Source: Desulfolutivibrio sulfoxidireducens
GTDB taxonomy: Bacteria > Desulfobacterota > Desulfovibrionia > Desulfovibrionales > Desulfovibrionaceae
DNA length: 64,000 nt
Assembly: GCF_013376475.1 (NCBI RefSeq)
Contig: NZ_CP045508.1
Location: forward strand, 124,001 to 188,000
Direction of reading: 5' to 3'
The notes beneath the pieces are model-generated. The model saw nothing but the letters and a program-made list of their open reading frames with translations, had not been told where the DNA came from and did no database searches. Both the position numbers and the translations under genes were made by a program. Shown one piece after another: positions 7,092 through 28,316 of this stretch; the stretch's first letter is position 1; every line of letters starts with the position of its first letter.

Positions 7092-7167
7092 GTTCTCCTC
7101 CGGAGCGTGGAAGCCGATTCCGGGGTCGGCCGCGGGCCTCGCCAGCGCGCCGCCGCCCGGGCTGACG

Positions 7168-7584: not shown

Positions 7585-7771
7585 GCCCGTATCCAGTGGG
7601 TGAAGGGAAATTGTCCGGCATGGCCGTACGCCTGACGGGTCACGCCTTTTGAAGTCACGACGTGATCATAACCATCCAATAGCTAAGTAAAAATTTTTTT
7701 TCAAGGGGCATGATGCACATTTCGTCAAAAAGGCGGTTCAAATATTCTTTCGCCGGTCGCGGAGGCAGGTC

Positions 7772-9129: not shown

Positions 9130-9207
9130 GTCCCCATCGTCTAGCCTGGTCCAGGACATCGGCCTTTCACGCCGGTAACAGGGGTTCAAATCCCCTTGGG
9201 GACGCCA
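9130..9207 (+). tRNA. tRNA-Glu (anticodon TTC), island attachment site
   Basis: The acceptor stem pairs GTCCCCA with TGGGGAC. The anticodon stem CGGC/GCCG encloses the loop CTTTCAC with anticodon TTC (9166-9168). GGGGTTCAAATCCCC forms the T-arm, and CCA is encoded. Its 3' part, from the anticodon stem to beyond CCA, is repeated exactly at 22901 and 32750, which marks it as the integration target for the adjoining islands. The gene remains intact, as is usual when an element supplies the 3' end on insertion. Confidence 0.95.
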
Positions 9208-9208
9208 A
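9163..9208 (+). repeat. attachment-site core, copy 1 (inside tRNA-Glu)
   Basis: This 46-base stretch covers the anticodon loop, T-arm, acceptor 3' strand and CCA of tRNA-Glu. It is identical to the copy at 22901 and, with five more bases, to the copy at 32750. It is the presumed left junction (attL) of the composite island. Confidence 0.9.
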
Positions 9209-9278: not shown

Positions 9279-9470
9279 TCAAGCCCCCGAGGTTAGCGCC
9301 TTGGGGGCTTCTTGCTTGACGAAGGGAATCACCCTGGCCGGGCCTTTCTTCACCAGGACGGATTCCAGGGCCTCCCGGGTATGCTCCAGGCCCAGGCTAC
9401 GCAGGTAGCGTTCCGTGGTTGCGGGCGACTTGTGGCGCAAGATGGCTTGGATCACGGCCACTTGCCTCAG
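9279..9470 (-). pseudogene. tyrosine recombinase (integrase) C-terminal remnant
   Basis: The reverse strand encodes IQAILRHKSPATTERYLRSL followed by a basic tail, which is the C-terminal end of a phage-type integrase. It includes the His of the RxxR-H box region and the nucleophilic Tyr in TTERYL. The rest of the catalytic domain and the N-terminus are missing, replaced upstream by a fragment of an unrelated gene. Its place next to the tRNA, reading towards it, is where integrases of tRNA-targeting islands usually sit. It is very likely inactive. Confidence 0.8.
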
Positions 9471-9784
9471 ATATCCAGCTTCGGCAGCGCGTTCACGATT
9501 TTCATGGTCTCCAGGCTCACAGTCACCACGCGGGCGAACAACTCCAGCGGGTAGCGCGGGTTGTTCATCGTCTCCGTCGCCCAATCGTTGGCGTCGTTGG
9601 CGATGCCGCTGGCCTTGTCGGTCTTCACGCATTGGCGTTCCACCACCCAGTCCAGGGCTGGCTTGCCATTGACCACGTAGTCGTAGGCTTCAAGGGGAAT
9701 GCCGGTCAGGGTGATCTTGTGGTTGTAGATCAGCGTGGTGAGGTCTTTGCCCTTGCCTTTTTTGCCGTAGCGCATTGTTTCCAC
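9467..9784 (-). pseudogene. C-terminal fragment of a predicted helicase / type ISP-like restriction protein
   Basis: The fragment (about 105 residues) contains DYVVNGKPALDWVVERQ, KTDKASGIANDANDW and a VVTVSLETMKIV ending. These are recognisable as the C-terminal end of the large DEAD/DEAH helicase-like proteins associated with type ISP restriction-modification. Nothing of the nuclease, helicase or methyltransferase parts is present. Its stop lies directly against the integrase remnant, so a deletion appears to have joined the two genes. Family assignment is from memory of the motif. Confidence 0.6.
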
Positions 9785-9902
9785 GCATCAATCAGCCCGG
9801 CCCAATCCGCCCGCAAAGGTCGTGACCGCTAAATGCGCCAACCCAATCAGATGAATGGGAATTTGGTCCATTTTTACAATGAGCGGCGACCGAACACGGC
9901 CT

Positions 9903-9932
9903 TTGACGGTCGTTGCCCCATAGATGTATACT
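9903..9932 (+). promoter_or_regulatory. putative sigma70 promoter of the STAND-BTAD regulator
   Basis: TTGACG and TATACT are separated by 18 bases, a good match to the housekeeping consensus. Transcription would start near 9940. That excludes the in-frame ATG at 9924 as a translation start and leaves a leader of about 135 nt before the GTG at 10077. Confidence 0.6.
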
Positions 9933-10076
9933 GGAAAAGCCAATCAACCTCGAAGGCGGCATGAGCAGCAACCGGACTCTGGCTTGCCTTCGCCCCAAAA
10001 CTGTCCAACCATCCGGGTCCGCCTCAATCAGGGCAGGATGGCTGGAAGGCCATGTCCGTTTCACAAGGAGCCCGGT

Positions 10077-13000
10077 GTGTACGTTGGGGTTGATAAATTT
10101 TACCCACCCCAGGTTGGCGGCCCAAAATTCCTGTTTCGGCAACGGGTTGTTGACAACCTTATCCGTAGATGCTCCAGGCAAAAGCCCATCATCGTCTTCG
10201 AGGCCCAGGCAGGGCAGGGCAAGACGACCGTCATCAAGCAGTTCCTCGACCGTCTCGGCGGCGATTCGGCGTGGTATCAGGTCACGCCCGAGGATGCCGA
10301 CCCGGCCAATCTCCTAGCCGCGCTCCAGGCGTGCCTGTCCCAAGGCTGCCCGGAGCAGCCTGAGATCGCAGACATCCCCCGGTGGACCGCAGGCAACATC
10401 AGCTGCTACAATCTTCCCAAGCATCTTGCCCGCCTGCTTGGACAGGTCCGGTCGCATCTGGCCAATGATCTGTATCTGGTCTTCGACGATCTCCACCACC
10501 TGGCAGGGCATGAAGAAAGCGTATTCCTGATCAACCATCTGATCGCCACCGCACCGCCCCGGCTGCGTTTCATCCTATCCTCGCGAGAACCCGTCAGATT
10601 GCAAGCCCTTGCGCACTCTGGCGAGTCTGCGAGCGTGGCGCGCGTGGGCAACAGGGAACTTGCCCTTGAGGACAGTGAAATCGCCGATCTGTTCCATCAG
10701 GTTTTCGGAGGCGCGCTCTCCCACAGCATGATCCGGGAGATTTCCATAAAAACCGACGGCTGGATCATGGGCGCGCTTCTTTTCGGGCTCCAGATGGTCA
10801 GCAGGGGGGATGCCGAACCTCTGGGCAGCTGGGATGGCGCGAGATGTTCGGACATCCGCGCGTATTTCAGGCGAAAGGTGTTCGCCCTGCTTGAACCGGA
10901 GTTGCGCCACCCGTTGCTGGTGCTGTCGCTGCTGGAAGACATCCCGGTGGATCTTGCCGCAGGGCTCACCGGCAGGGAGGATATCCACGCAAGGCTTCAT
11001 CAGCTGGCTGCGCGCAATTTTTTCATCCGGGATCTGACTCCGGATTCCACGGTATTCGGACTGCACCATCTGTTTCGGCAGTTCTTGCGCGACAAGGCTG
11101 CGCAAGAGCTGGCTCCGGAGACGCTTCGGAAGGTGCACCGGGATGCCGGCGCGTATTACCTCCGGTGCAACACCCCCGCCCAGGCCCTGCGGCATTACCT
11201 GAAGGCAGGCGACTTGGAGGCCATTGATGCCGCGCTTCGCGAACAGGGTCCGGCCATGCTCGCGGCCAACCAGACGGCGACGCTCTCCTCAATCCTGGGA
11301 TCGATACCAGAGCAGGACTTGGCGCGCCTGGGCTGGGGCTGCCTCTTCCTCGCCTTGGCCACCATGGACAGCGCCCCGGCCAATGCCCTGCCCCTGCTCC
11401 GCAAGGCCCTCGCGGTCTTTGCGCCCGCGCATGACGAGCTTGGAGAGCTTGTCTGCCTTGCGCACATCATTTCCATTCACATCACCACCACGGGGCACTC
11501 ACGGGAAGGCGAACAACTCCTGGAACGCGCTGAGGAACTCTTCCAGGGCCTGGAAGGCGGCATCGATTCCTGCACCACCATCCTTATTGCCCGAAGTATG
11601 GCCATGGGTCGGGTCATCTTTCTGGCTGACGTGGACACGGCCACGCGCTACGCGGACATGGCCATGTCCTTGGCCATGAAAGACCACCTAGTGAATTTCG
11701 AGGCGGCCATGCTGATGGTCATGGGATACATCAAGATATTTGCGGGGCACCTCTCCATGGCCAGACAGTGGATGGAGCGCGCCCACGAAATTGTGCCTCG
11801 CTCTGAGGTGGGAGCATTCCATTGTCTGGCCATCCGCATGATGCTGATGAATTTCCTGTTTCATGACGGATGCTTTGACAATTACTATACCGAGAAAAGC
11901 CAAATCGTGGATGCCGTCGGCATGGATATGTTCTCCCAGAGCATCGTCGGCCCCTTCTGCCATGTATGGGAAATGGACATCGCCATCAATCAGGGTCGCT
12001 TCGAGGAAGCCCTGCGCATCGCGAAAGAGGCCGACGCCCTGAGCCCGCACCTGAAAAGCCAGACCCTCCAATTGAAGGCCGTGGTCCTGGCGCTTCAGGG
12101 ACAAGCAGCCGAGGCCCTTGCAGCCTGTGACGAATCGACCAGGCTAAGGGAACAGGCCGGAGGCCTCTATTTCATCACGCTTCAGAAGATTGTTGGCGGC
12201 CTCATCCACGGCTTCTGCGGCGAGTACGACGTCGCTGTCTCCATGCTCACGGAAGGTATCCAAAAAGCAAGGTCCATGCCTACCGACTATCTGGAGTCCT
12301 GCGGGCTCATGCACCGTGCGGCGACGTTTCTGCTGCGCGGTGAATGCGAGGCGGCCACAGCGGACATCCGCAGAGGACTCGGGCTCATGCGCCGCAACGA
12401 CTACAAGCATTTCTGGGCCTGGACGCCGGGCAGCATGGAGCAGGTTCTTGGGTTCGCCGTTTCCCGAAATATCGAACCCGCTTACGCCCGTAAACTGGCG
12501 GTGGAGCACATCCGTCACGACTTCACGGACCAGGGGGAATCCATTCCCCTCCTGGAGGTCAGGTGCCTCGGGGAACTCGCCATACTCTTCCGCGGCGAGC
12601 GGGTTTTGCCTCCGGAGGCCCTGACGCAGGGGCAAAGGGAGCTGCTTTGTCTGCTCCTGGCCTCCCCGGACTTGAAAATACCCCAGGACACGGCGTGCCT
12701 GCACTTCTGGCCGGACGGCTCCCCCTTGGCGACCAGGACCAATTTCGACACCATGATGTCGCGCCTGCGCAAGTCCTTCGCGGAGGTGTTGCCCCAAAGC
12801 CTCGCGGGCCGGTACCTGTTCAGGGAGCGAGGCATGGTCTGGCTGGCCAACTGCCGGGTGGACGCGCTCCTGTTCCTGGAAGAGGCGAAAAAGGGCCAGG
12901 AGCACTCCCGCCTGCAGCAGCGCTGGCAGGCCGCCAACGCCTTCTCACGGGCGGCGGCCCTTTGGAAGGGGGAGTTCGCCCCCGGAGTCACCGGGGAGGA

Positions 13001-13298
13001 TCGAATCAGCGCATTCCGCCACAAACTCACCGCTGCGCTGGCCCGCCTGGCTCTGACGTGGGGCGGCCATCTTGACCGGATAAACCGCACCCAGGCCGCC
13101 ATCGACATCGTGGAAAAAGCCCTCCGGCCTGATCCACTCAACGATTCTCTGTGGGCGCTCTTGTACCGGCTGCACGGCCGCCACTCCGTCCTCCAGGCCC
13201 GCCAAGTGGCCAACCGCCTGGCCACGGTTTTGCGAAACGAAGGATACCCCGAGGCTGACATCGAACAGATCCTCGCGGGTGTCACCGTCGCACCCTGA
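10077..13298 (+). CDS. STAND ATPase transcriptional regulator with BTAD domain
   Basis: This large regulator (1073 aa) has an N-terminal NTPase of the MalT/STAND type with Walker A AQAGQGKTT (Lys49) and Walker B LYLVFDDLHH. A helical, TPR-like middle (about 350-820) follows, then a C-terminal winged-helix plus bacterial transcriptional activator domain (about 820-1073, from LEVRCLGELAILF). Such proteins are one-component activators in which ATP and an inducer drive oligomerisation on DNA. The GTG at 10077 is chosen because AAGGAG sits six bases upstream; the in-frame ATG at 10038 is the alternative. It is convergent with the six-gene exported hydrolase block and is the only regulator in that island segment, so it is a candidate controller of that block. 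That link is inferred from position. Confidence 0.88.
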   Translation: MYVGVDKFYPPQVGGPKFLFRQRVVDNLIRRCSRQKPIIVFEAQAGQGKTTVIKQFLDRLGGDSAWYQVTPEDADPANLLAALQACLSQGCPEQPEIADIPRWTAGNISCYNLPKHLARLLGQVRSHLANDLYLVFDDLHHLAGHEESVFLINHLIATAPPRLRFILSSREPVRLQALAHSGESASVARVGNRELALEDSEIADLFHQVFGGALSHSMIREISIKTDGWIMGALLFGLQMVSRGDAEPLGSWDGARCSDIRAYFRRKVFALLEPELRHPLLVLSLLEDIPVDLAAGLTGREDIHARLHQLAARNFFIRDLTPDSTVFGLHHLFRQFLRDKAAQELAPETLRKVHRDAGAYYLRCNTPAQALRHYLKAGDLEAIDAALREQGPAMLAANQTATLSSILGSIPEQDLARLGWGCLFLALATMDSAPANALPLLRKALAVFAPAHDELGELVCLAHIISIHITTTGHSREGEQLLERAEELFQGLEGGIDSCTTILIARSMAMGRVIFLADVDTATRYADMAMSLAMKDHLVNFEAAMLMVMGYIKIFAGHLSMARQWMERAHEIVPRSEVGAFHCLAIRMMLMNFLFHDGCFDNYYTEKSQIVDAVGMDMFSQSIVGPFCHVWEMDIAINQGRFEEALRIAKEADALSPHLKSQTLQLKAVVLALQGQAAEALAACDESTRLREQAGGLYFITLQKIVGGLIHGFCGEYDVAVSMLTEGIQKARSMPTDYLESCGLMHRAATFLLRGECEAATADIRRGLGLMRRNDYKHFWAWTPGSMEQVLGFAVSRNIEPAYARKLAVEHIRHDFTDQGESIPLLEVRCLGELAILFRGERVLPPEALTQGQRELLCLLLASPDLKIPQDTACLHFWPDGSPLATRTNFDTMMSRLRKSFAEVLPQSLAGRYLFRERGMVWLANCRVDALLFLEEAKKGQEHSRLQQRWQAANAFSRAAALWKGEFAPGVTGEDRISAFRHKLTAALARLALTWGGHLDRINRTQAAIDIVEKALRPDPLNDSLWALLYRLHGRHSVLQARQVANRLATVLRNEGYPEADIEQILAGVTVAP

Positions 13299-13390
13299 TC
13301 AACGGCGTCTCAAAGAAATCCCTTGAGGAAAGAAAACGGCGCCCGCCCTCGCGTGCCCAACCAGTGGCGGTCAGGGGCTGAGGCGCGGAC

Positions 13391-14671
13391 TCAGCGGGGC
13401 GAGAAGGTCACGTCCAGCCAGTCGAAAACCACCTGGCTCATGAGGCTGCGGTTCTCCATGACGCAATGGTTGGCGGCCCCCTCGGCGGCAGGCGTAACCA
13501 CCATGGTCTTGCGCGTGCTGGCTAGGCCTTCCAGGCAGAGCGTGTTCTGCCGCTCGATTTCGGGGCTCTGGTATTCTCCTGCCGCCACCAGGATGAGCGC
13601 GGGCGCGTCAACCCTGGCCGGGTCGAAGCGCAGTTCCTTGTTGGCTTCGACAAGGCCCGGCAGGTTGTTCATGTCAACGCCGAATCGCCAGGCGATCATC
13701 TGGTTGCTCGTCCGGTTGAACGAGGACCAGCCCTTGACCGTCTCCGGGGTGGCCGTCGCCACGGCCATCTTGGCCACGCCCGCGCCCGCATCCACCACGC
13801 AGTTGTTCATGATGACGGCCTTGATGCGCCCGTCCCGCTCAGCCGCCATGGGCGCGAAGCCTCCGCCGCTGCTGATGCCGTAGACGGCCAGGCGCCTGGG
13901 GTCCACGTCCTTGCGGGAGAGGGCGTAGTCCACCGCCGCCGAGATCGAAGCGCCGATGTCCGGGCTGAAGAAGCGCCCCTCCAGAGGCAGGAGCCCCTGC
14001 CCGGGCAAATCAACGGTCAGGAAATTGTATCCCCGGTCGAAGGCCTGGGGCGCGATGTAGAAATACTGGTCCTCGGCGAAGGTCTCGGCCCCGCCGATCA
14101 TGACCAGGGTCGGGGCGGGGGCGTCTTCGGGCGCGGCCTTGCGGAAATATCCGGGGAGAACCGCTCCCTTGAAGGGAATCTCGATGTATTCGAGTTCCGG
14201 CTTCATGAGCTTTCCGGCCCGCTTCATGAGCCCCCGGCTCTTGCCGGCGGTCGGCGCGAGGCGCGGATCGTCCGGGAGCATGGCCGCCATGGCCGCGCGG
14301 TAGGCGTAGGATGCCCGCATGAACTGGTCGCGGGCGCTGACCGCGTGCCCTCCGGCCAGGGCCTGCTCGCCCCTCGCTTCGATGAGCGCGGCGGTTTTCA
14401 GCCACTGGTCGCGCCAGCTGTCCGCGTCGCCGTCCTTGATGGCGGCGGCGGTGGCGAAAGCCTCGCCCACCTCGCAGCCATGGTTCACGGCGGACCCGAG
14501 AATCAGCGAACCGAAAACGAAGTCCATGGCCGGGTCCTTGAACTTGAAGCCCACATGGGCCGCGTGCGGGTCCATGGCAGGCTCCGGGGACGCCCCGGCG
14601 GCCGGTCGACAGGAAATGATCGCTGCGATTCCAGTCAACAAGAGCGTCAATGCAAAGCTTGAACGACGCAT
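13391..14671 (-). CDS. exported alpha/beta-hydrolase (FrsA/DHPON-hydrolase-like), lipoprotein
   Basis: The product (426 aa) begins with a lipoprotein-type signal ending in AIISC (Cys21), so it should be anchored on the outer side of the inner membrane or in the outer membrane. A helical cap region with AIKDGDADSWRDQW precedes an alpha/beta-hydrolase core showing VDLPGQG, the nucleophile elbow YGISSGG (Ser267) and a late histidine in ANHCVMENRS. The family is usually esterase or C-C hydrolase; the substrate is unknown. It is the last gene of a six-gene block on this strand and is closely related to the genes at 20848 and 34637. It retains all motifs expected for activity. Confidence 0.85.
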   Translation of the reverse strand: MRRSSFALTLLLTGIAAIISCRPAAGASPEPAMDPHAAHVGFKFKDPAMDFVFGSLILGSAVNHGCEVGEAFATAAAIKDGDADSWRDQWLKTAALIEARGEQALAGGHAVSARDQFMRASYAYRAAMAAMLPDDPRLAPTAGKSRGLMKRAGKLMKPELEYIEIPFKGAVLPGYFRKAAPEDAPAPTLVMIGGAETFAEDQYFYIAPQAFDRGYNFLTVDLPGQGLLPLEGRFFSPDIGASISAAVDYALSRKDVDPRRLAVYGISSGGGFAPMAAERDGRIKAVIMNNCVVDAGAGVAKMAVATATPETVKGWSSFNRTSNQMIAWRFGVDMNNLPGLVEANKELRFDPARVDAPALILVAAGEYQSPEIERQNTLCLEGLASTRKTMVVTPAAEGAANHCVMENRSLMSQVVFDWLDVTFSPR

Positions 14672-14740
14672 CGCCCCCTCTCCACGTTTTGTTGCGCTGA
14701 GCGCGAGGGGGCGGCCTCACGGCCGCTCCCCCGCATCAGG

Positions 14741-16468
14741 CTATTGTTCGGGCTTGGCCCGTTCGTCCAGCCAGTCCAGTATGCGTTCGCTGGACACGAG
14801 AGGAGCGCCCAACTGGCAGTGGAACTGCGCGCCCCTGGACGCGTCGAACTCCATATAGGTCTTCTTGGCCTTCAGCCCGTTATAGAACAGCTTGGACTGG
14901 GCGTTGGAAGCGGCGACCTGGTCCTCGCTGGAGTTGACCACCAGCATCTCGGTCTCGATCTTGCCCATTGTGTCCGCCTGGTTGAATGTTTTGAGCTTCG
15001 AGAACAACGCGCTCGGGGTCTTGGCGTCGAAGGTCCAGAGCATCTGGCTGATGAACTGGTTCAGCTCCGGGCGCTTGCCCATCTCCTGGGTCACGATTTC
15101 GTCCACCCTGGCCGCCTGGGCGGGCGCGTCCACCCCTTGGAGGACTTCGGGCGGGAACTTGGTCATGACCCCGTCAAAGGGGCTCACCACGCCGCCGTCG
15201 GCGATGCCCCAACTGATGCGCTTCTCGAAGGCCAGGGCGCGTGGGACCAGGTAGCCGCCCATGGAGTAGCCGATGATGGCCATGCGCTTGGAATCCACCT
15301 CGGGCAGGGTCACGGCGAAGTCCACCACAGGGGTGACGACCTTTTCCCAATCGAACCGGAAGGGCAGGCCCTGCTTGACGATCATCTCGCCCTGGCCTGG
15401 GCCCTCGTAGATCAGGCAGGCGTAGCCGCGCTTCACGGCCTGGGCGGCGATGATGAAGTAGAGGTCCTCGGCGGTGCCGTCCAGGCCGGTCTGGATGAGC
15501 AGCAGGGGCCTCTTGCGGCCGGAATTGTCCGGGGTGACCAGGTAACCGGGCAGGGTGGTCTTCTCATAGGGGATGCGCACGTGACGTATGCGCCCCTCGG
15601 AGAGCTGGGCGGCCTTCAGGAAGGCGTCGCGCCCGTCCTGCCAGGCCACGGCGCCGCGCGGGTCGCTGCCGAAGAGGTAGATCGAGCTGGCCCGGAAGTA
15701 CTCGGTGGCGCGGAAATACTGCTGCATGGCGCTCACGGCGCGCCTTACGGCGGCGTCCCGGTCAGCCGCGTCGCGCACCCTGCGGGCCATGCCGTTCCAG
15801 GCCTGATACCAGCTCTCCTTGTCGTAGTCCTTCACCTGGCTGGTGATGGTGAGCAGTTCGCCCAGATCCGCTCCGCCCGAGGCGATCAGGCCCGTTCTCC
15901 AGAGGCATTGGAAGACGAAGGCGCCGTCGTTGAAGAGGTACTTGGACATGGCCCGGTCGGCGATGTCCCGGACGGGCTTGTCGGGCTTGCCCCGGTAGGC
16001 GTCCCAGTGGGAGACCTCGCCGTTGATGTAGACCTGGCCCTGCAGGGGGAAGTGGGTGTGGACGAAGACCCACTTCTTGTCCAGGCCGGTGTTCCTGGCC
16101 AGGGACTCCGCGATGGCGGTCATCATCTTGGCCACCAGGTCGTCGGTGAAGAAGCCGGGCACGTAGAGGTCCACGAACAGGGGCTTGTCCGTGGAGGGTT
16201 TGCCCATGCAGTGCACGGCGTCGAAGGTCTGCCAGTAGTAGGTGACGAGCTCCTCGCCCAGGCCCGTGGACTTGGCCACGTCGCGGCTGACGGCGGCCAG
16301 CACGGCCGGAACGTCCAGGTTCGATTTGGCGTAGGTGATGCGGACCATGGGGTCGGCCGGATTTATGCCGCCCTGGGCGTTGGCCACGGCAAGACCTGGA
16401 GAGCCGAGCAAGACGGCAAAGACTATTAAAAGCGCCGGAACGGCGTGCCTCCAAACGTGAAGCAGCAT
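14741..16468 (-). CDS. exported two-domain protein: tautomerase-like (DUF1904-type) domain fused to alpha/beta-hydrolase
   Basis: The 575-residue product has a cleavable signal peptide (to about residue 30). An N-terminal domain (about 36-150, DPMVRITYAKSNLDVPAVLA through VYINGEVSHW) resembles small tautomerase/MIF-fold proteins of the DUF1904 type. A complete alpha/beta-hydrolase follows, with TPDNSGRKRPLLLIQTG, YEGPGQGEM, the nucleophile elbow IGYSMGGY (Ser402), an acidic residue in VNSSEDQV and the late His in FHCQLGAP. The DUF1904 assignment is by eye and only moderately sure; the hydrolase is clear. The neighbour at 16580 is a paralogue that lacks the N-terminal domain. The fusion suggests two sequential steps on one substrate, which is inference. 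Confidence 0.82.
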   Translation of the reverse strand: MLLHVWRHAVPALLIVFAVLLGSPGLAVANAQGGINPADPMVRITYAKSNLDVPAVLAAVSRDVAKSTGLGEELVTYYWQTFDAVHCMGKPSTDKPLFVDLYVPGFFTDDLVAKMMTAIAESLARNTGLDKKWVFVHTHFPLQGQVYINGEVSHWDAYRGKPDKPVRDIADRAMSKYLFNDGAFVFQCLWRTGLIASGGADLGELLTITSQVKDYDKESWYQAWNGMARRVRDAADRDAAVRRAVSAMQQYFRATEYFRASSIYLFGSDPRGAVAWQDGRDAFLKAAQLSEGRIRHVRIPYEKTTLPGYLVTPDNSGRKRPLLLIQTGLDGTAEDLYFIIAAQAVKRGYACLIYEGPGQGEMIVKQGLPFRFDWEKVVTPVVDFAVTLPEVDSKRMAIIGYSMGGYLVPRALAFEKRISWGIADGGVVSPFDGVMTKFPPEVLQGVDAPAQAARVDEIVTQEMGKRPELNQFISQMLWTFDAKTPSALFSKLKTFNQADTMGKIETEMLVVNSSEDQVAASNAQSKLFYNGLKAKKTYMEFDASRGAQFHCQLGAPLVSSERILDWLDERAKPEQ

Positions 16469-16579
16469 GGTTGAAACCTCCTTGGACTGTCTTTTTGCCC
16501 TGCACGGGGTCAGGTTGCAGCGACCGACGGCCGACTGCCCGTCCTTTCGTGCGCCTGGACGCGTGAATACCGAATGGCC

Positions 16580-17959
16580 TTATGGTTTGACCCGTTCATC
16601 CAGCCAGTTGAACATGTTCTCACTGGCAACCAGGGGAGCGCCGACCTGACAATGGGACTGAGCGCCTTGACTCGCATCGAACTCCAAGTAGGTTTTCGTG
16701 GACACGAGCGCGTTGTAGAATTGCTTGGCCTGAGCGAAGGAGTCATTGATCTTGTCGGCGCTGGAGTTGACCACCAGCATTTCCGCCTCGATCTTGCCGA
16801 CAACGTCAGCGACGGTATAGGGCTTCAGCTTGCGGAAAAGGTCGCTTGGAGACGTGGCCTTGAATATCCACAATCTCTGGTTGATGGCGTGACGAAAACC
16901 GAGACTCCTGCCCATTTCCTGGGTGACGAGGGCATCCACCGTTGCGGCCTGGGCCGGGGAATCGACGATTTTTCGTACGGCTTCGGGCAGTTGCTTCAGG
17001 GTCCCCTCGTAGACGCTCCAGACGCCGCCGTCGGCAATGCCCCACTTGATGCGTTTCTCAAAAGCCAGGGCGCGAGGGACGGACATGGATGGGCCGAAAA
17101 TGGCCATGCGCACGGCGTCCACTCCGGGAAGGGTCATGGCGAAGTCCACGACAGGGGTAACGACTTTCTCCCAGTCAGGCCTGAAGGGCAGTCCCTGCTT
17201 TATAATCATCTCCCCCTGGCCGGGGCCTTCAAAGATCAGACAGTTGTAGCCGCGTTTCACGGCCTCTGCGCCGAGGAGGAAGTAGAGGTCCTCCGCTGTG
17301 CCGTCCAAACCTGTCTGGAGCAGAAGCAGAGGCCGCTTTTTGCGGCTGTTGTCCGGGGTGACCAGATACCCCGGCAGGGTGGTCTGCTCGTAAGGTATCC
17401 GCACGGGCTGGATGCGCCCCTGGGAGAGCGACGCCGCCTTCATGAAGGCGGCGCGGCCTGCTTGCCAGGCGAGAACGCCCCTTTCGTCGCCATACTCGAA
17501 GACCCCTGCGGCTCGGAAGGCGTTGGTCGCCCTGAAATAGGCCTGCATGGCGCTTTGGGCGTGGCCGGAGGCAAGATAGGCATCGGCGTTGGCGCGCAGT
17601 TTTACGGCCATACCATTCCAGGCCTGACGCCAGCTTTCCGTGTCGCCATCCTTGATCTGACTGGCTACAGTCAATATCTCCCCGAGGTCTCCTGCGCCGG
17701 TAGCGATCAACCCCGCTCGCCACAGGGTCTGGAAGAGGAACGTCCGTTCATGGAACAGGAATTTGTCCAAATACCTTTCGCCGTCATTCCGTGGGGAAGC
17801 GGTCGGTTCGCTGGCGCCGTCCATCTGCGGGGCCTTGGCGGCAGGTGGGGAATCGCCGCCGCTGAAGGCCAGAGCTGTCGGAGCCATGGTCCAGGCCAGG
17901 AACGCCAAGACGAGGATCGCCTGGGCCGGGACCAGGGTGTGGATGCGGACACGAGCCAT
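16580..17959 (-). CDS. exported alpha/beta-hydrolase paralogue with degenerate nucleophile elbow
   Basis: This 459-residue protein has an N-terminal signal peptide and aligns along most of its length with the hydrolase part of the neighbouring 575-residue protein, sharing TPDNSRKKRPLLLLQTG, FEGPGQGEM and the late His in SHCQVGAP. At the catalytic elbow it reads IFGPSMSVPRAL where the paralogue reads IIGYSMGGYLVPRAL. Three residues are gone and the GxSxGG glycines are lost, although Ser291 remains. The frame is otherwise intact, so this looks like an in-frame deletion rather than decay. The protein may be catalytically dead or may bind ligand without turning it over. AAAGGGAG precedes the ATG at good distance. 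Confidence 0.83.
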   Translation of the reverse strand: MARVRIHTLVPAQAILVLAFLAWTMAPTALAFSGGDSPPAAKAPQMDGASEPTASPRNDGERYLDKFLFHERTFLFQTLWRAGLIATGAGDLGEILTVASQIKDGDTESWRQAWNGMAVKLRANADAYLASGHAQSAMQAYFRATNAFRAAGVFEYGDERGVLAWQAGRAAFMKAASLSQGRIQPVRIPYEQTTLPGYLVTPDNSRKKRPLLLLQTGLDGTAEDLYFLLGAEAVKRGYNCLIFEGPGQGEMIIKQGLPFRPDWEKVVTPVVDFAMTLPGVDAVRMAIFGPSMSVPRALAFEKRIKWGIADGGVWSVYEGTLKQLPEAVRKIVDSPAQAATVDALVTQEMGRSLGFRHAINQRLWIFKATSPSDLFRKLKPYTVADVVGKIEAEMLVVNSSADKINDSFAQAKQFYNALVSTKTYLEFDASQGAQSHCQVGAPLVASENMFNWLDERVKP

Positions 17960-17995
17960 GGGGCTCCCTTTGGTTTCGCGTATGGCGCGAGGAAT

Positions 17996-19645
17996 CTACC
18001 TATCCAGCCTGAATCGCGACATCCTGTCGATGAAGTCGCATTCTTTGCCGTAAAGGTGTTGTTCAACCCGGATGTGGTCAGCAAAGTTCAGATTCAAGTC
18101 TGTCGTTGAAGCATACGCGGGCCACTCCGCCAGGCCCGGCCCGTTGGGGTCGCCGGTGCGGGCGAAATTCACCCAGTAGGCCATCATCAGGCGGGAGAGG
18201 GTCCTGTCCGCGTCCGTGTAGCCGTCGGCCGGGTTCATGTCGCCGAACACGTAGGCCAGGTCTACGCCGTGGAACGCGCCCAGCTCCCGGGCCCTGGCCG
18301 TGTCCGGGCGCCTGGTGAAGCGGTACAGCCATGCCTTGACGCCGGTCCGCTCCAGGGCGCGCGCCTCGTAGTGCGCGGGTTGGGCGTTCACGGCCACGGT
18401 GATGAACCGGTCGATGGCTCCGTACACGTCCGCGTCCGCCGGGGCGGGGAACATGGCCAGGGCGTCCTTCCACTGTTCGCCGAAGCGGGCCTTCAGGAAC
18501 GCCTCGTATTTCGCCGTGGTCAGGTTCTTCTCCCCGCGCAGGTAGGTGGTCCCCTCGTTGCCGGTGCTGCCCATGATCATGGGCACATGCCCCGCCTTGG
18601 CGTCGGCCAGGGCGGCGGCAGGATCCCGAGGCAGCGCCACGCCGTCGAAGACCGGGGCGAAGAAGAGGCCGTCCGCGAAGATGCTGGTCTGCGTGTCGGC
18701 GGCCCGCAGCGCCTCCTCGGCGGACTTGGCCCGCATGCAGGCGAGTTCGTCCGCCTGTCCGGCGCAGCCGAGCCGCCGGGAGAGCTCCCGGCCCATTTCC
18801 GACACCGCCTTGGCGTCGCCGTTGAAGGCTGGGCTCAGGTACTCGGACCCGATGATGGGGCCGCCGCTCTGGGCGATGGCCCGCTTGAAGAGGCCAGCAG
18901 CCAGCGGGCTTAGCGTCAACAGGGACACGGAGCGGGATCCGGCGGATTGGCCGAAGATGGTCACGTTGTCCGGATCGCCGCCACAGGCCGCAATGTTTCG
19001 CCTGACCCAGCGAAGCGCCTCAATCTGGTCCAGCAGGCCATAATTTCCGCCTCCACCTGCTTCCGACTCGGCCATCAGGCCTGGATGGACCAGGAACCCC
19101 AAGGGACCAAGGCGGTAGTTGACCGTGACCGCCACGACGCCCTGCCGGGCCAGCTCGCTTCCCGCGTACTCCGGCTGCGAGGACGCCCCGAAGGTGAATC
19201 CGCCGCCGTGAATCCACACCATCACGGGGAGCTTTCCGTTGACCTCGCGCACGGGGGCGAACACGTTCAGGGTAAGGCAATCCTCGGAGGAGCCGTTTCC
19301 CAGCGGTCCGGTCTGGGCGCAGGCGGGGCCGTACGCGGTCGCGTCTCGAACGCCTTCCCAGGGGCGCGGCGGTTTTGGCGCTTTCCAGCGAAGATCGCCT
19401 GTGGGGGGCTGCGCGTACGGGATGCCAAGAAAGACCCGCACGTCCCCGGCGATCCGGCCCGAGACGGGTCCGCTGTCCAGGTTGATGGTTGTTTCAAAAT
19501 CCCCCGCCGCGCCGACAGGCAGGGCGGCGGACAGAAGACCGAGAAGAAGGGCCGCAGCTGCGAGTCCCAACCTTCCGGCGGCGGATAGGCCGCGAGCGTC
19601 CCTGGGCGGCTTTGAATCGGCGTTTTTTGGCGCGCGTCTCATCAT
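17996..19645 (-). CDS. exported type B carboxylesterase
   Basis: The 549-residue product has a long Ala/Leu-rich signal peptide (about 25-47) and a full type B carboxylesterase domain: RVFLGIPYAQPP, EDCLTLNVFAP, the oxyanion loop WIHGGGF, nucleophile elbow IFGQSAGS (Ser234), GNEG with the acidic residue, and the histidine in GAFHGVDLAYVFG. All triad elements are present, so it should hydrolyse carboxylic esters in the periplasm or outside. Its start overlaps the stop of the upstream lipoprotein gene by four bases (ATGA), indicating coupled translation. It belongs to a different hydrolase branch from its four hydrolase neighbours, which suggests a multi-enzyme degradation set. Confidence 0.92.
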   Translation of the reverse strand: MMRRAPKNADSKPPRDARGLSAAGRLGLAAAALLLGLLSAALPVGAAGDFETTINLDSGPVSGRIAGDVRVFLGIPYAQPPTGDLRWKAPKPPRPWEGVRDATAYGPACAQTGPLGNGSSEDCLTLNVFAPVREVNGKLPVMVWIHGGGFTFGASSQPEYAGSELARQGVVAVTVNYRLGPLGFLVHPGLMAESEAGGGGNYGLLDQIEALRWVRRNIAACGGDPDNVTIFGQSAGSRSVSLLTLSPLAAGLFKRAIAQSGGPIIGSEYLSPAFNGDAKAVSEMGRELSRRLGCAGQADELACMRAKSAEEALRAADTQTSIFADGLFFAPVFDGVALPRDPAAALADAKAGHVPMIMGSTGNEGTTYLRGEKNLTTAKYEAFLKARFGEQWKDALAMFPAPADADVYGAIDRFITVAVNAQPAHYEARALERTGVKAWLYRFTRRPDTARARELGAFHGVDLAYVFGDMNPADGYTDADRTLSRLMMAYWVNFARTGDPNGPGLAEWPAYASTTDLNLNFADHIRVEQHLYGKECDFIDRMSRFRLDR

Positions 19646-20769
19646 TGCACCGGAATTGTGAGTTGGGGCGGCAGGGTGGCGTTTTTCTCCTCCATCAGGG
19701 TGAAGGCCAGCATGAGGAAAGAGAACACCCGTTTGGCCAGGATATCGCGGTCATCGACCCAGAACCAGTGTCCGTGGAAGGAGATGGCCGCAAAGGCGTC
19801 CAGGGGCCTCACGCCGCCGCTGTGCACGGCCACGGGGTCCAGGATGTCCGAGCCCGGCGAATCTTTGATGGAAGGCAAGGCGCGGCGCGAGTCGATGTCC
19901 TCGGCGGGAATGTCCACCCGCGCAGCCACGGACGCCAGGATCTGCATGAGGGAGAACGCCTGTATGGCGATCTGGCGTCGGTTCTCGACCTCCGGGTCGA
20001 TGGTGATTTCATATTCATAGACTGCCGGGTCCAGGTGCAGGATATCCCGCAACTCCGATATCAGAGCGGCCACTTCGGGCGAGGGCCGCTTGCCGCCCAA
20101 CATCAGGTACATGCGTCCTTCCCTGCTGTTCTGGCCGTGTTCGACCCTGACGCGCACGGCGCTCTCCAGTTGCAGTTGCGAGATGATTTCCACAGTCCGC
20201 TTGAATCCCTCTTGGGCCGGGACGTTGCCCGAAGCGGTGAGGGTGGCGTTGCGCAGTCCGTTTATGGACCGCACGCCCAGGTTGAACAGGAATTTCGCCG
20301 AAATGCCGGTATCCAGCCCCATCATGATGTTTCGCACCGGCAGCGCGGACATGACTCCCAGGCGGAAAGAGGCGCCGGTCATGGGCTTGTAGGTGATTGT
20401 CGGGCGGTCGGTGTAGCGGGCGCTTGCACCGAATTCCAGTTTGCTGAAGTTGCTCAGCACGGGGTTATTGTTGTCGGTAATCAGGGTGGGGCCGTTGTAC
20501 AAGGTGCGCGAGAAGCCGACGCTGCCGCCGGTTTCCATGGAATAGCCGGCCACGATGTCGCCCACGTCCATGAAGAAGATGGGCTCCGCATAGCGGACTT
20601 TCACGATGTTGAGCAGTATCTGACGTTTCCAGGATTCCGTGTACGAGGCGATATAGTCGGTGCGGTCCTGGAGCATCCGTCTCGGTCCGATGGAGCCGCA
20701 GCCCGCGGACGTCGCCGCGGCCACAAGGAGCATGATGCAGGCGGCCTTGCCGCGCCAACGGGTTTTCAT
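19642..20769 (-). CDS. exported lipoprotein of unknown function
   Basis: The first 25 residues form a lipoprotein signal ending in SAGC. The remaining roughly 350 residues are soluble, with KRQILLNIVKVRYAEPIFFMDVGDI near the start and no catalytic motif that I recognise. Similar short motifs are seen in poorly described outer-membrane-associated lipoproteins of proteobacteria, but I cannot name the family. It is locked into the hydrolase block by a four-base overlap with the carboxylesterase start. It is the only non-enzyme in the block, so a role in anchoring or substrate delivery is possible. That role is speculation. Confidence 0.75.
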   Translation of the reverse strand: MKTRWRGKAACIMLLVAAATSAGCGSIGPRRMLQDRTDYIASYTESWKRQILLNIVKVRYAEPIFFMDVGDIVAGYSMETGGSVGFSRTLYNGPTLITDNNNPVLSNFSKLEFGASARYTDRPTITYKPMTGASFRLGVMSALPVRNIMMGLDTGISAKFLFNLGVRSINGLRNATLTASGNVPAQEGFKRTVEIISQLQLESAVRVRVEHGQNSREGRMYLMLGGKRPSPEVAALISELRDILHLDPAVYEYEITIDPEVENRRQIAIQAFSLMQILASVAARVDIPAEDIDSRRALPSIKDSPGSDILDPVAVHSGGVRPLDAFAAISFHGHWFWVDDRDILAKRVFSFLMLAFTLMEEKNATLPPQLTIPVQ

Positions 20770-20847
20770 TGCTGTGTCCTTCTGGTCCTTGACCTGCGGC
20801 TGGCGGCGCGCCCGGATCGATGGCGCGCCGTTCGGAGGGAACCGCCG

Positions 20848-22155
20848 TTACTTCTTGAACACGCCGTCGAGCCAGTCGAAGACCACCTGGGCCACCACGC
20901 TGCGGTTCTCCATGACGCAGTGGTTGGACGCGCCCTCGTTGAGCGGCGTGACCACCAGCTTCTTCATGGGGTTGGCCAGCCCGTCGATGCAGAGCTTTTG
21001 CTGCCGCTTGGTCTCGTCGCTGGAGTATTCTCCCTCGCCCACCAGCGAGAGGGCGGGCGCGGTCACCTTGGCGGGCTCGAAGCTGAAGCCCCTGTTGGCC
21101 TCCACCAGGCCGGGAACGTTATCCATGGGCACGCCCCAGCGCCAGGCCACGATCTTCACCGTGTTGCCGTGGAAGCTGGTGAACGTGGCGACCTTCTCGG
21201 GCGTGGCCGTGACCACGGGGGTCATGCTGGCAAACAGGGGGTAGGCGTCCACCACGCAGGCGTTCATGATCACGGCCTTGATGCGCGGGTCATGCTGGGC
21301 CGCCTGGGGCGCGAAACCGCCGCCGCCGGAGATGCCGAACACGGCCAGCCGGGCGGGGTCGACGTCCTTTCGGGCGAGGGCGTAGTCTACGGCCTTTTCC
21401 ACCGCGTGGTGCATCTCCGGCCTGAAGGTCTTGCCCTCAAGCGGCAGGATGCCCTGGCCCGGCATATCCAGGGTCATGAAGTTGTAGCCGCGCTCGATGG
21501 CCTGGGGCATGATGTAGAAGATCAGATCCTCGGCGAAGGTCTCGCCGCCGCCCAGCATGAGCAGCGTCTTGCGGGGCTTGCCGTCCTTGGCGGCCTTGCG
21601 GAAGTAGCCGGGCAGCATGGCGCCCTCGAAGGGTATCTCGAAGTATTCGAGCGGCGGATCGAGAAGCTTGCCTGCCTGCTTCATCACCTCGCGCGATTTG
21701 ATTGCGGTCTGTTTCAGGCGCGGGTCGTCGGGCATCATGGCCAGGAGGCCGAAGCGGTAATAGTTGGAGGCGCGCATGAGCTGCTCGCGGGCGCTTATCG
21801 CGTTCCCGCCCTCCAGCGATTTCAGGCCTCTTGCCTCCACCCTGGCCGCCATCTTGAGCCACTCGTCCTGCCAGCTGGCCGCGTCTCCATCCTTGATGTT
21901 GGCCGCCACGTAGAACGCCTCGCCGGTCTCGGCCCCGCCGTTGCTGATGGAACCGAGCACCACGGATCCGAAGGTGAAGTCCATGTCCGGATCCTGAAAG
22001 TGGTAGCGCACGTAAGGCGCGTGCATGTCGAATTCTTTCTGCGCCTTCTGCCCGGCGTCGTTCTTGGCTGAAATATTGGACCGTTCGGCCGTGCACGAAA
22101 TCAGGAGGGCCGAAATAAGCAGGACGCCTGCCGCCCATACGCAACGCTTCTTCAT
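20848..22155 (-). CDS. exported alpha/beta-hydrolase lipoprotein, first gene of the block
   Basis: The protein (435 aa) starts with a lipoprotein signal ending in LLISC, then the family cap with NIKDGDAASWQDEW. The hydrolase core contains LGGGETFAEDL, LDMPGQG, the nucleophile elbow FGISGGGG (Ser276) and the late histidine in SNHCVMENRS. It is a paralogue of the last gene of the block and of the gene at 34637. The ATG is preceded by AAGGAGT at ideal spacing. A perfect inverted repeat lies in its 5' region and may control the whole block. Substrate unknown. Confidence 0.87.
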   Translation of the reverse strand: MKKRCVWAAGVLLISALLISCTAERSNISAKNDAGQKAQKEFDMHAPYVRYHFQDPDMDFTFGSVVLGSISNGGAETGEAFYVAANIKDGDAASWQDEWLKMAARVEARGLKSLEGGNAISAREQLMRASNYYRFGLLAMMPDDPRLKQTAIKSREVMKQAGKLLDPPLEYFEIPFEGAMLPGYFRKAAKDGKPRKTLLMLGGGETFAEDLIFYIMPQAIERGYNFMTLDMPGQGILPLEGKTFRPEMHHAVEKAVDYALARKDVDPARLAVFGISGGGGFAPQAAQHDPRIKAVIMNACVVDAYPLFASMTPVVTATPEKVATFTSFHGNTVKIVAWRWGVPMDNVPGLVEANRGFSFEPAKVTAPALSLVGEGEYSSDETKRQQKLCIDGLANPMKKLVVTPLNEGASNHCVMENRSVVAQVVFDWLDGVFKK

Positions 22156-22334: not shown

Positions 22335-22770
22335 TCACGCCGTCTGCGGCGATATTTGCGTGAGTTCGATCTCGTTGGGCTGGAGGCTGCGTTCGGCCAT
22401 GACCTCGACCTGCATGTAGCGGCTTTGGAGTCTCCATTCGTCCTTTTGCTCCAGGCGAATGGCCCCGATGAGCCGGATGATGGACTGCTCGTCAGGGAAA
22501 ACGCCCGTCACGTTCGCCCGTCACGGGACTTCCTTGTTCAATCTTTCAAGGGTATTGGCTCTGCGTAGCTTGAGCAGGCGCTGGGCCGGGAAAGTGAAGT
22601 GCGCCAGCGCGTCGAGCTCGGTTTCGTCCATAAAGGCTGCAAGCTTCGGCCAGCGTCCTCGAAGCTGGTCGGCCACGTCTGGCTCGCGCTGACCGTGTCC
22701 GGCTGGAGGAAGGCTTGCCGAAGCGCGGCGGAGATCATGGCGCGCTGTCCCTTGGGCGCCCCATGTATAT
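22335..22770 (-). pseudogene. IS256-family (mutator-type) transposase remnant
   Basis: Reading the reverse strand gives PKGQRAMISAALRQAF, then after a one-base frame change VADQLRGRWPKLAAFMDETE, NTLERLNKEV, and after an in-frame TGA FPDEQSIIRLIGAI and LEQKDEWRLQSRYM to a stop. This is the C-terminal third of an IS256-type transposase in correct order, broken by one frameshift and one stop. The N-terminal two thirds are missing, and the break falls next to the repeated segment that carries attachment-site copy 2. Confidence 0.85.
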
Positions 22771-22772
22771 CG

Positions 22773-22946
22773 CCGGGCAAACCCTGGTCCACACGACTGT
22801 CCACATCACGTGTGGCGCCTCTGTACTCTCTGGCGCGTGGGGATCGAAAAAAATCAAAGTATATGAGGGTGTTTGAAAAAGTGTTTGAGTCTGCTCTGCC
22901 CCTTTCACGCCGGTAACAGGGGTTCAAATCCCCTTGGGGACGCCAA
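22773..22946 (+). repeat. long direct repeat, copy A (right end of island segment 1)
   Basis: About 174 bases beginning CCGGGCAAACCCTGG and ending with the tRNA-Glu 3' segment recur almost unchanged at 32623-32795. The differences are a handful of substitutions and a one-base indel. The shared part in front of the tRNA segment is not found near the tRNA-Glu gene itself, so it belongs to the inserted elements. Confidence 0.88.
22901..22946 (+). repeat. attachment-site core, copy 2
   Basis: This is identical to 9163-9208. The 5' half of the tRNA is absent, so it is not a tRNA gene. It marks the junction between the two island segments. Confidence 0.9.
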
Positions 22947-22953
22947 GTATTTC

Positions 22954-22990
22954 AGCGGTTTACGGCAACCACGTAAGCCGCTTTTTCTTT
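22954..22990 (+). terminator. rho-independent terminator after att copy 2
   Basis: An 11-bp stem (AGCGGTTTACG / CGTAAGCCGCT, one G-T pair) with a seven-base loop is followed by TTTTTCTTT. It probably derives from a terminator that once followed a tRNA at this junction. The rest of the stretch up to the IS3 element (about 260 bp) is AT-rich and shows no gene. Confidence 0.75.
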
Positions 22991-23287
22991 GGTCCACATC
23001 TTGTCCACATCCCGTCCCCTGACGCCAGTTCAAAATGGCCTGTGTCCTGCGCGACTAAGGATTCGTTTCCGATGGTGTGCAAGGCCATATTGCAATTTCC
23101 ATCATTACTTTTCAAAGTGACAGATTTTTTATCAGTTTAAAAAAGCAAAATAGTTTACGTACAAAAGAATGAAAAATGGCCATACCCGTGAACGATCAAG
23201 TTGCTGCATTTGTATTGAGCAGAAGACCCCCCGAGGGTAAATCACCGACGCCTGCGTGGAGTTGCCCCCGCTAAACCGGACACCAGT

Positions 23288-24217
23288 TTAAGAACGTTGG
23301 CCACGCCCCGCCGCCGTCCGGCCGCCTCCGACGAGCTCGTTGGCGGCCCATTCTCGGCGGCGGGCCGTCGGCTTACTCCGCAGTGACTCGCCAGCAACAC
23401 ACATCCGTATGAACTCACGAGGCGACATCATCTTCAGCCCTTTGTGCGGATGGATTTCGTTGTAATCCTCGAACCATGCCGCAAGCTGGCTCAGGACGGT
23501 CCGGGCATCTGGACGATCGTTGACGTACACGTAATCGCGTTTGAAGGTCTTCACGAACGCCTCGGCCATGCCGTTGCTCTCCGGGCTTCTGACCGGGGTG
23601 AACCTGCTAACCAGGCCCAGCCAGGACGCAAATTCCACAGTCTCCTTGGCCGTGAAGCAGGAGCCGTTGTCGGTCAGCCACTCCAAACGGTGCGGCGCAT
23701 GGCTCGTCCCGAATCGTTTCTCCACGCATTCCAGCATCATATCCCGCACCATGGCGCCGGAGATGCCCCCTGTCGCGGCCACAAAGCCGATGATTTCCCT
23801 ATCGCAGCAATCCAGGGCGAACGCCACCCTGACCTTCTCGCTGTTCAAGCATCCAATCTCGAAAGCATCAGCACACCAGCGCAGATTGCTCCGCAGCATG
23901 ATGACCTTGCCATCATGAGACCGCTCTGGACGCTTGCCGGTGTGCCTGGCCAAAAGCAGGCCGTAAAGGCGCATGATCCGATACACGCGCTTGTGGTTCA
24001 CCCGTGCCTGCCCCAGTTCCACGAGACGCCGGTTCAGCAGGGCGCACACTCGCCGGTAGCCGTAGGTCAGCCGACCATCGACGATCTCACGGATCAAAGG
24101 CAGCAGGACTTCGTCCTGGGCCTTGGAATAACGGAGAGGGCGATTCCTTGGGCCGGTCGCCAGTCGTTCGGACAACTGCGAACGGGCCACGTCGAACGCC
24201 TCCGCCACCCGTTTCAC
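23288..24217 (-). CDS. IS3-family transposase OrfB (DDE integrase core)
   Basis: This 309-residue protein has an HTH_21-like N-terminus (LTYGYRRVCALLNR) and an rve catalytic core with the acidic residues in RWCADAFEI, WLTDNGSCF and SPESNGMAEAFVKTF. It starts at GTG within a GTGA overlap with orfA, and GAGGAGG lies just upstream. It may therefore be made separately by coupling as well as by a -1 frameshift fusion. It catalyses cleavage and strand transfer of the element. The gene is intact. Confidence 0.95.
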   Translation of the reverse strand: MKRVAEAFDVARSQLSERLATGPRNRPLRYSKAQDEVLLPLIREIVDGRLTYGYRRVCALLNRRLVELGQARVNHKRVYRIMRLYGLLLARHTGKRPERSHDGKVIMLRSNLRWCADAFEIGCLNSEKVRVAFALDCCDREIIGFVAATGGISGAMVRDMMLECVEKRFGTSHAPHRLEWLTDNGSCFTAKETVEFASWLGLVSRFTPVRSPESNGMAEAFVKTFKRDYVYVNDRPDARTVLSQLAAWFEDYNEIHPHKGLKMMSPREFIRMCVAGESLRSKPTARRREWAANELVGGGRTAAGRGQRS

Positions 24218-24612
24218 AGGAAATCCTCCTCGAAAGGCAACGGCGTGCGCGATATCAGTTTTTTTTCGCGCGCGATCTTGATGCCTTCCTTGAGAATTTC
24301 CACCTCCATGGTCTTCTTGCCCAGGAGTCGTTCCAGCTCGCGAACCCGCTTCTTGAGAGCACGAGCCTCCGAAGCGCTGACCACTTGGTCGTCCGCCTGT
24401 ACAGCCACCTTGCCGCCCTCGCTCATGAGCTTCCTCCAGTGGAAGAGCTGGTTTGGTGCGATGCCGTGCTTGCGGGCGACGTACGAGACGCTCATCCCTG
24501 GCAGGGACGACTCCTCCACGATCCGAAGCTTCTCCGACAATGGCCAGCGCCGACGCTGGACCTCGTTGACCAACTCGACCGTGGCGAACTCGTTAGCACT
24601 ATGTCTGGACAT
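24214..24612 (-). CDS. IS3-family transposase OrfA (helix-turn-helix)
   Basis: This 132-residue protein has the HTH_Tnp_1 domain (RWPLSEKLRIVEE, SVSYVARKHGIAPNQLFHWRK) that binds the terminal repeats. A leucine-zipper-like coiled coil follows (KKRVRELERLLGKKTMEVEILKE split over about 25 residues), which mediates multimerisation. It precedes and overlaps orfB as usual for the family. Confidence 0.95.
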   Translation of the reverse strand: MSRHSANEFATVELVNEVQRRRWPLSEKLRIVEESSLPGMSVSYVARKHGIAPNQLFHWRKLMSEGGKVAVQADDQVVSASEARALKKRVRELERLLGKKTMEVEILKEGIKIAREKKLISRTPLPFEEDFL

Positions 24613-24676
24613 ACCTCTAGACCTATCTCCTAGGTTGAAGAGGGTGTCCGGTCGAATTGGGGGCTACTCCACTGCG

Positions 24677-28315: not shown

Positions 28316-28316
28316 T

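Follow-up and report, generated by a model that had tools for sequence, protein, structure and literature searches.

A 64-kb stretch of the Desulfolutivibrio sulfoxidireducens genome (NZ_CP045508.1, positions 124,001-188,000), called the window here and used for the numbering of all coordinates below, contains a tRNA-borne element that encodes five predicted exported hydrolases, a lipoprotein and a regulator. Open reading frame (ORF) families were assigned by Pfam and NCBIfam profile searches, tRNA genes were identified with ARAGORN, and signal peptides and lipoboxes were read by eye from the sequence. G and L numbers denote the genomes and loci compared; G001 and G002 are the other two species of the genus.

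The regulator gene REG (10077-13298, plus strand) is predicted by Pfam to encode a transcriptional activator with three parts: a STAND NTPase, a MalT-like TPR region, and a BTAD domain. The remaining six genes form a unit on the minus strand. The first is H5 (20848-22155), an exported FrsA-like hydrolase of branch A, followed by the lipoprotein LP (19642-20769), which had no Pfam or NCBIfam match at E 0.1. Next come H4 (17996-19645), an exported type-B carboxylesterase (PF00135, E 2e-123), and H3 (16580-17959), an exported FrsA-like paralogue of the H2 hydrolase domain. H2 (14741-16468) is predicted to be an exported fusion of a tautomerase-fold domain (residues ~40-144) with an FrsA-like hydrolase (~170-575), and H1 (13391-14671) is again an exported FrsA-like hydrolase of branch A. 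LP and H4 overlap by 4 bp, and the other intergenic gaps of the unit measure 36-111 bp.

The original prediction described five exported alpha/beta-hydrolases from three branches plus a lipoprotein on one strand, and both the ORFs and their families agree with it. Identity is 60% between H1 and H5, 64% between H2 and H3, and about 28% across the pairs; H4 has no blastp match to any of them (E 1e-3). We saw one overlap where two had been counted. The unit had been said to face the activator. REG is indeed convergent with it, tail to tail, with 92 bp between the ends of REG and H1, but the two share no promoter region. Likewise, at least two hydrolases had been thought to be lipoprotein-anchored. 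H1 and H5 do carry a lipobox-like Cys in this strain, but anchoring is not conserved in the sisters, because the H1 orthologue in G002 and the H5 orthologues in G001 and G002 lack a lipobox. The term "export system" is misleading, since the proteins have the look of Sec substrates and the element encodes no secretion machinery. The unusual concentration of hydrolases, on the other hand, is borne out: the H1/H5 profile gives six matches at E 1e-5 in this 4.16-Mb genome (one of the six partial), and four of them lie within the same 9 kb as one of the genome's two type-B carboxylesterases, a clustering beyond chance, and the genes are under selection (see below).

Borders and sister copies of the element

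The island proposed at this locus is real, and its borders were located by direct repeats of the tRNA-Glu 3' end. The integration site is a tRNA-Glu(ttc) gene (9130-9207, plus strand), identified by ARAGORN and by the repeat, whose 3' end forms the first att copy (9163-9208). It recurs without mismatch as 46 bp at 22901-22946, inside the right terminus of the element (22757-22946), and as 51 bp at 32750-32800, inside the terminus of a second, tandem element (32607-32800). The two termini match over 174 bp at 96%. The cassette occupies the interval between the first two att copies, and the element is 13.8 kb long. In having a duplicated tRNA 3' end at both borders and a second element in tandem, it is like tRNA-integrated genomic islands; unlike them, it has no intact integrase that we could find. 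Only gene scraps lie at 9279-9784 (minus strand), without an integrase Pfam match: a C-terminal piece of a Type ISP restriction gene (9467-9784) and a stretch at 9279-9632 that, by its motif and with no Pfam match, is a putative recombinase-like tail.

Both sister species retain parts of the cassette. In G002, all seven genes are present in the same order at 81-96% identity, with REG lacking roughly its first 222 residues (the NTPase part) and LP lacking residues 33-312. An att-like relic of 45 bp (93%) lies beyond the truncated REG, and no tRNA gene was found there. We considered purposeful shortening of REG and LP in G002 and rejected it, because the REG deletion takes the start and about 222 codons; the remnant frame starts in sequence that in the window lies upstream of REG, in another frame. 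The LP deletion is in frame and by itself uninformative on this question. G001 has the same neighbouring gene (69%), a tRNA-Gln and a tRNA-Glu, and then H5 with 39 codons of LP; this locus, at the same tRNA, is what a deletion has left. Upstream of REG, a block of about 230 bp (9799-10033) abuts the deletion end points in both sisters (L008 2848-3074; L007 ~18968-19180), and a further copy lies in G002 (L043 ~1880-2063). G002 also has an H1/H5-type copy elsewhere (L170), without cassette partners.

Comparison of this genome with G002 gave dN/dS values of 0.20 for H5, 0.31 for H4, 0.23 for H3, 0.18 for H2, 0.25 for H1, and 0.28 for the shared part of REG. H1-H5 are thus under purifying selection between these two species (0.18-0.31). 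REG has a much lower dS (0.07) than the hydrolases (0.27-0.48), which gives the element the look of a mosaic. An alignment of the sequence upstream of H5 in this genome and the two sisters showed no readable shared operator, because this genome's sequence has diverged there from both.

The encoded proteins

Four of the hydrolases match PF06500 (FrsA-like; gathering score 22 bits): H1 barely, at 22.1 bits, H3 at 25.6, H5 at 27.2, and H2 at 35.5. The GXSXG elbow reads GISSG in H1, GYSMG in H2 and GISGG in H5. In H1, Ser267, Glu366 and His402 are invariant in alignment A1, and the Glu would be the acid of the triad. H3 deviates: its elbow is shortened, with GPSMS in place of GYSMGGYL, identically in G002, and the tautomerase-fold domain is absent. 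Given its dN/dS of 0.23, H3 may be either an altered enzyme or a non-catalytic partner. H4 scored 413 bits against PF00135, with residues 52-538 covering profile positions 3-514 of 515.

Profile relatives of the FrsA-like hydrolases include SMU_737, DHPON hydrolase and Ayg1p/Wdyg1p, with FrsA and AntI found only with A3. DHPON (2,6-dihydroxy-pseudo-oxynicotine) hydrolase acts in alkaloid breakdown. SMU_737 (PDB 3fnb) is the closest solved structure and matches over nearly its full length (A1, E 2.4e-53); its match to H2 starts only behind the N-domain. With Ayg1p, Wdyg1p, AntI and DHPON hydrolase, the relation covers the cap and, as far as the nucleophile, the core (AntI again only with A3); the Ser-acid-His residues are present, and the aligned loop is acidic, reading GLD in H2/H3 and GG[A/G]E in H1/H5. 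The H2 GLDG loop aligns its Asp with the Asp188 stretch of Ayg1p, where H1 and H5 have Glu. In its published mechanism, Ayg1p converts enol to keto through a polar network with Asp188 and then cleaves a carbon-carbon bond (PMC11165489). We propose carbon-carbon cleavage as a candidate activity of the FrsA-like enzymes, from the profile relation and the aligned acidic loop residue. Ayg1p, Wdyg1p and AntI are enzymes of pigment biosynthesis, whereas the window proteins look exported and occur in sets, and H2 bears an additional domain that Ayg1p-type hydrolases lack.

The hydrolase domain of H2 (Ser402, Asp516, His550) is a profile relative of SMU_737, Wdyg1p, Ayg1p, DHPON hydrolase, FrsA and AntI. 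For its N-domain, Pfam sequence searches gave nothing useful. Residues 40-144 of the H2 AlphaFold model matched a fused 4-OT in Foldseek (E 5.8e-6), and reached VIA Z up to 13.2 against tautomerase structures (104 residues, root-mean-square deviation 4.2), where helical MIT domains reach Z 12.6 against the other domain of the same model. Like fused 4-OT, cis-CaaD and MIF, the domain has two beta-alpha-beta units, and Pro40 aligned with chain residue 1 in most tautomerase rows. Unlike those members of the superfamily, H2 looks exported and is fused to a hydrolase, and its proline is preceded by an invariant Asp: in H2-type fusions, Pro40 lies behind a signal-peptide-like start and a GG[I/L][N/D]P[A/T]D stretch, and the Asp-Pro pair is invariant at this site in eight proteins, three of them stand-alone (L051, G210, G126). 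From this low-confidence model, H2 appears to be an exported fusion of a tautomerase-superfamily fold with an FrsA/Ayg1/DHPON-hydrolase domain. We claim only the fold for the N-domain and not a catalytic tautomerase, because Pro40, although at the right structural place, is not N-terminal as encoded. A survey of the superfamily counts 346 known members without Pro-1 and terms its domain structure relatively simple; its main text contains none of the terms hydrolase, signal peptide, secreted or periplasm (PMC5818174). A search of open-licence literature, judged by titles and abstract openings, gave no description of the cassette or of the H2 fusion.

The H2 N-domain was found in only four genomes of a sample of 395. 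In L051, it is encoded by a stand-alone gene about 16 bp upstream of an H1-type gene (mechanical ORF starts). Stand-alone relatives of 160 aa in two distant genomes (L138 1486-1968; L139 1480-1962) have signal-peptide-like starts and the same Asp-Pro fold start, and neither has an FrsA-like gene beside it. Loci of the tautomerase family PF14552 encoded short 4-OT forms or were unclear, and were not used.

LP has an invariant Gly23-Cys24 lipobox. A fold search with its model (predicted local distance difference test, pLDDT, 55) gave no match at E <=0.001, and we know of no role for the family. This genome encodes a distant LP paralogue (25%) at another site (L009 8744-9940), with no cassette hydrolase nearby.

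In REG, AAA_22 scored above its cut-off, BTAD scored 34.2 against 22.1 bits, and TPR_MalT fell just below. The NTPase, the MalT-like TPR (below cut-off) and the BTAD domain make REG resemble MalT-type STAND and BTAD activators, but it is not MalT by the NCBIfam equivalog, at 154.7 against the required 537 bits. To our knowledge, no role has been assigned to this regulator.

Recurrence in other genomes

We scanned a species-genome collection once with the H1/H5 alignment, which gave 41 loci; L069, identical to L068 in length, contig number and match, was dropped as a duplicate, leaving 40. These were compared with the cassette proteins and with three partner proteins from G190, whose contig we took to be L047. 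At least one further cassette or partner protein was present in 19 of the 40 loci (L044-L052, L054, L056, L061, L062, L064, L070, L071, L076, L081, L083); L048 and L052 count through a metallo-beta-lactamase-fold partner only, and L062 and L064 through a regulator of 21-23% identity only. H4-type genes were found in nine loci, the metallo-beta-lactamase-fold partner in five, and H2-type genes in four, with the N-domain only in L051. The other 21 loci, including that of G001, had no listed partner, and several are on short contigs. Of 16 among the 40 loci that were scanned for tRNA genes, three had them (L051, L054, L056).

LP lay directly downstream of the H5-type gene, on the same strand and within about 150 bp, in all 11 of the 40 loci with both, one of the LPs being a fragment (L046). 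Because the scan was seeded with H1/H5 patterns, every locus necessarily has an H1/H5-type gene, but nothing in the design favoured the adjacency of LP. By name, the related units come mostly from deltaproteobacterial anaerobes and consist of an H5-type hydrolase, then LP, with varying exported hydrolases. Their other neighbours, assigned by Pfam from one representative each, include a lipocalin-like lipoprotein, an Abhydrolase_3 enzyme, a patatin, an HGSNAT-like acyltransferase, amidohydrolase and metallo-beta-lactamase folds, an MGH1/GH63-like enzyme, a TonB receptor, and an MMPL protein.

The hydrolase branches and LP thus genuinely recur together, in support of the original reading, and a STAND-TPR-BTAD-like regulator joins them in a few loci. 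In L062, L064 and L083, a protein with a C-terminal BTAD domain is encoded upstream of the H5-type gene at a distance of 300-490 bp; in L044, one is encoded downstream of the cassette, past one MGH1/GH63-like gene. They have 1,089-1,105 residues, with 62% identity to REG in L044 and 21-23%, nearly end to end, in the other three. The NTPase part gave a weak Pfam match below cut-off in L083 and none in L062 and L064, where a P-loop-like stretch is readable. Since L062, L064 and L083 share neighbours, we count them as about one independent case. Of 148 genomes of the phylum, at least 93 have a BTAD match, though many of these matches are partial, so its proximity in four of 40 loci is suggestive and not decisive. 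In L070, a 7TMR-DISM sensor gene (6175-7833) lies directly upstream of an H2-H5-LP set and may be an alternative regulator.

Further genes of the window lie beyond the cassette. The second element (22947-32800), at the same tRNA-Glu site, carries IS3-type transposase genes, a DDE transposase, a 4Fe-4S protein with an aldehyde:ferredoxin oxidoreductase, and an apparently broken 7TMR-DISM sensor kinase (30558-32548). Just outside the elements, an H5-type exported hydrolase (34637-35929; 58% to H5) is preceded by what reads by eye as a sensor-gene fragment. At 36149-39354, a PEP-synthase-like enzyme is split into two genes (a PEP-utiliser domain and a PPDK N-terminal domain) that flank an Mmp4/MtxX-like gene (below cut-off), an arrangement reminiscent of phenylphosphate synthase. 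A caspase-domain protein, a CHASE2-cyclase, a CsgG/DUF4384 protein and a TPR-CHAT protein are clustered at 42194-53051.

Possible functions of the cassette

The original observation is confirmed with the corrections given above, and its interpretation is partly supported. We propose that the element is a cassette for catabolism or detoxification, mobile and probably inducible, that acts outside the cytoplasm on acylated or 1,3-dicarbonyl compounds. We put the chance that this is right at a little below even, with the chemistry as a proposal. In favour of this reading are the att repeats, the conserved order and the remnant in the sister species, purifying selection, partners in 19 of 40 loci, the H5-LP order in 11 of 11, the BTAD regulators, and the profile relatives of the hydrolases. 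An ester-rich polymer or xenobiotic, as first suggested, is a possible substrate. Our analysis suggests that carbon-carbon hydrolysis of 1,3-dicarbonyls is an equally good candidate chemistry, based on relatives with solved structures and on the enol-to-keto step described for Ayg1p (PMC11165489).

In the proposed mechanism, REG would bind an inducer, oligomerise as STAND proteins do, and activate the unit from upstream of H5. Sec would carry the enzymes across the inner membrane, and their substrates, met in the periplasm or at the outer membrane, would be acylated compounds or 1,3-dicarbonyls of polyketide or phenolic type. H4 would cleave carboxyl esters, and the FrsA-like enzymes would use an acyl-serine to cleave esters or carbon-carbon bonds. 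The tautomerase-fold domain of H2 might bind the enol form or shift enol to keto ahead of cleavage, a role suggested by the fusion of such a fold to such a hydrolase and by the stand-alone gene beside an H1-type gene in L051. LP may anchor the H5-type enzyme at the envelope or pass substrate to it, and the resulting small acids and phenols would be taken up and oxidised.

Several observations weigh against this proposal. The cassette is eroding in two of the three species of the genus, and within the element we recognised no transport or downstream pathway gene. SMU_737, the closest solved relative, is named only as an acylaminoacyl peptidase. The H2 model has a mean pLDDT of 55, its N-domain had no significant profile match (the PDB hit to MIF, at E 0.12, ranked below unrelated beta-2-microglobulin at E 0.07), and the equivalent of Pro-1 is internal as encoded. 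No FrsA-like gene lies within about 9 kb of the stand-alone exported relatives in G210 and G126. An evenly drawn sample of 297 genomes of the phylum contained 11 with an H1/H5 match at 1e-60. Matches at <=1e-100 outside the genus were found in seven genomes, with a cassette partner in the flanks of one (G190; G349 has an MGH1/GH63-like gene there), so single copies are common.

LP was matched at 1e-20 in 28 of the 395 sampled genomes. We rejected the idea that it is specific to the cassette hydrolases, because none was near LP in any of 28 loci outside the cassette clade, on genomes and plasmids (L009, L026-L030, L032-L040, L123-L135). L041, with no LP match, was not counted; LP matches of G080, G230, G357, G428, G457 and two of seven plasmid records fall outside this set, and three of its contigs are short (L033, 3.2 kb; L132, 5.0 kb; L129, 8.3 kb). 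Some of these loci adjoin RND pumps or glycoside hydrolases. The RND name comes from plasmid annotations; the glycoside hydrolase, AI-2E-like and sulfatase-like genes near LP are putative, named by their sequence. Of five plasmid relatives, four are annotated: efflux genes appear in three of these and metal-transport ATPase genes in two. L028 has no annotated features. LP is therefore probably an older family, one clade of which moves with H5-type genes. The case in which the hydrolases would be scattered singly thus describes half of what we found: six of the seven strong relatives are alone and the 28 LP relatives lack a nearby cassette hydrolase, but partners occur in 19 of 40 loci.

The enzymes could instead serve defence, inactivating antibiotics, signals, or other bioactive esters, lactones or amides before entry, with the compound inducing REG. 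Export of several hydrolase classes fits this, and related cassettes add an exported metallo-beta-lactamase-fold enzyme (5/40) and an amidohydrolase (2/40; fold by Pfam) that we take to resemble an N-acyl amino-acid deacylase. Mobile, eroding genes also fit an intermittent benefit, and the FrsA-like proteins have weak similarity to UilS lactonase and lasso-peptide isopeptidase models. These named inactivating models score far below their cut-offs, however, we recognised neither a resistance nor an efflux gene in the element, and a set of paralogues from one family is better suited to stepwise or varied substrates than to a single inhibitor. We regard defence as unlikely, though credible.

Modification of the cell's own envelope, with the enzymes trimming acyl groups from surface lipids or polysaccharides, is more improbable still. 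It would account for the HGSNAT-like membrane acyltransferase in L045, L047 and L056, and for the nearby MGH1/GH63-like glycoside hydrolases in L044 (by Pfam) and in L052 and L079 (by clustering with that of L044), but the window's element has no recognised acyltransferase or glycoside hydrolase. LP was matched in only three of 39 relatives searched, all of this genus and two of them remnants, which argues against a core envelope function. A loose collection of broad-specificity scavenging hydrolases, gathered by an accreting island with no shared pathway, would explain the common solitary copies, the varying partner sets, the tandem elements with scraps and the deletions in two sisters, but it has little probability given the dN/dS values of 0.18-0.31, the recurring BTAD regulators, and an H5-LP order fixed in 11 of 11 loci across differently named taxa.

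Returning to a mobile catabolic or detoxifying cassette, the element resembles tRNA-borne islands of that kind, and the H2 architecture is its unusual part. A more specific version is doubtful: a horizontally moving, regulator-controlled pathway of anaerobes in which a periplasmic tautomerase-fold domain, with an unmasked or internal proline, and FrsA-like carbon-carbon hydrolases together dismantle natural products of the 1,3-dicarbonyl type outside the cell, while a new lipoprotein family partners the H5-type enzymes. The H2 fusion offers a testable model for coupling a keto-enol shift to carbon-carbon or ester cleavage, and bears on whether tautomerase-fold proteins can function without a free N-terminal proline. 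Extracellular breakdown is usually credited to other members of anaerobic communities. If our proposal is true, groups of sulfate reducers and syntrophs would exchange a dedicated kit for the extracellular breakdown of compounds.

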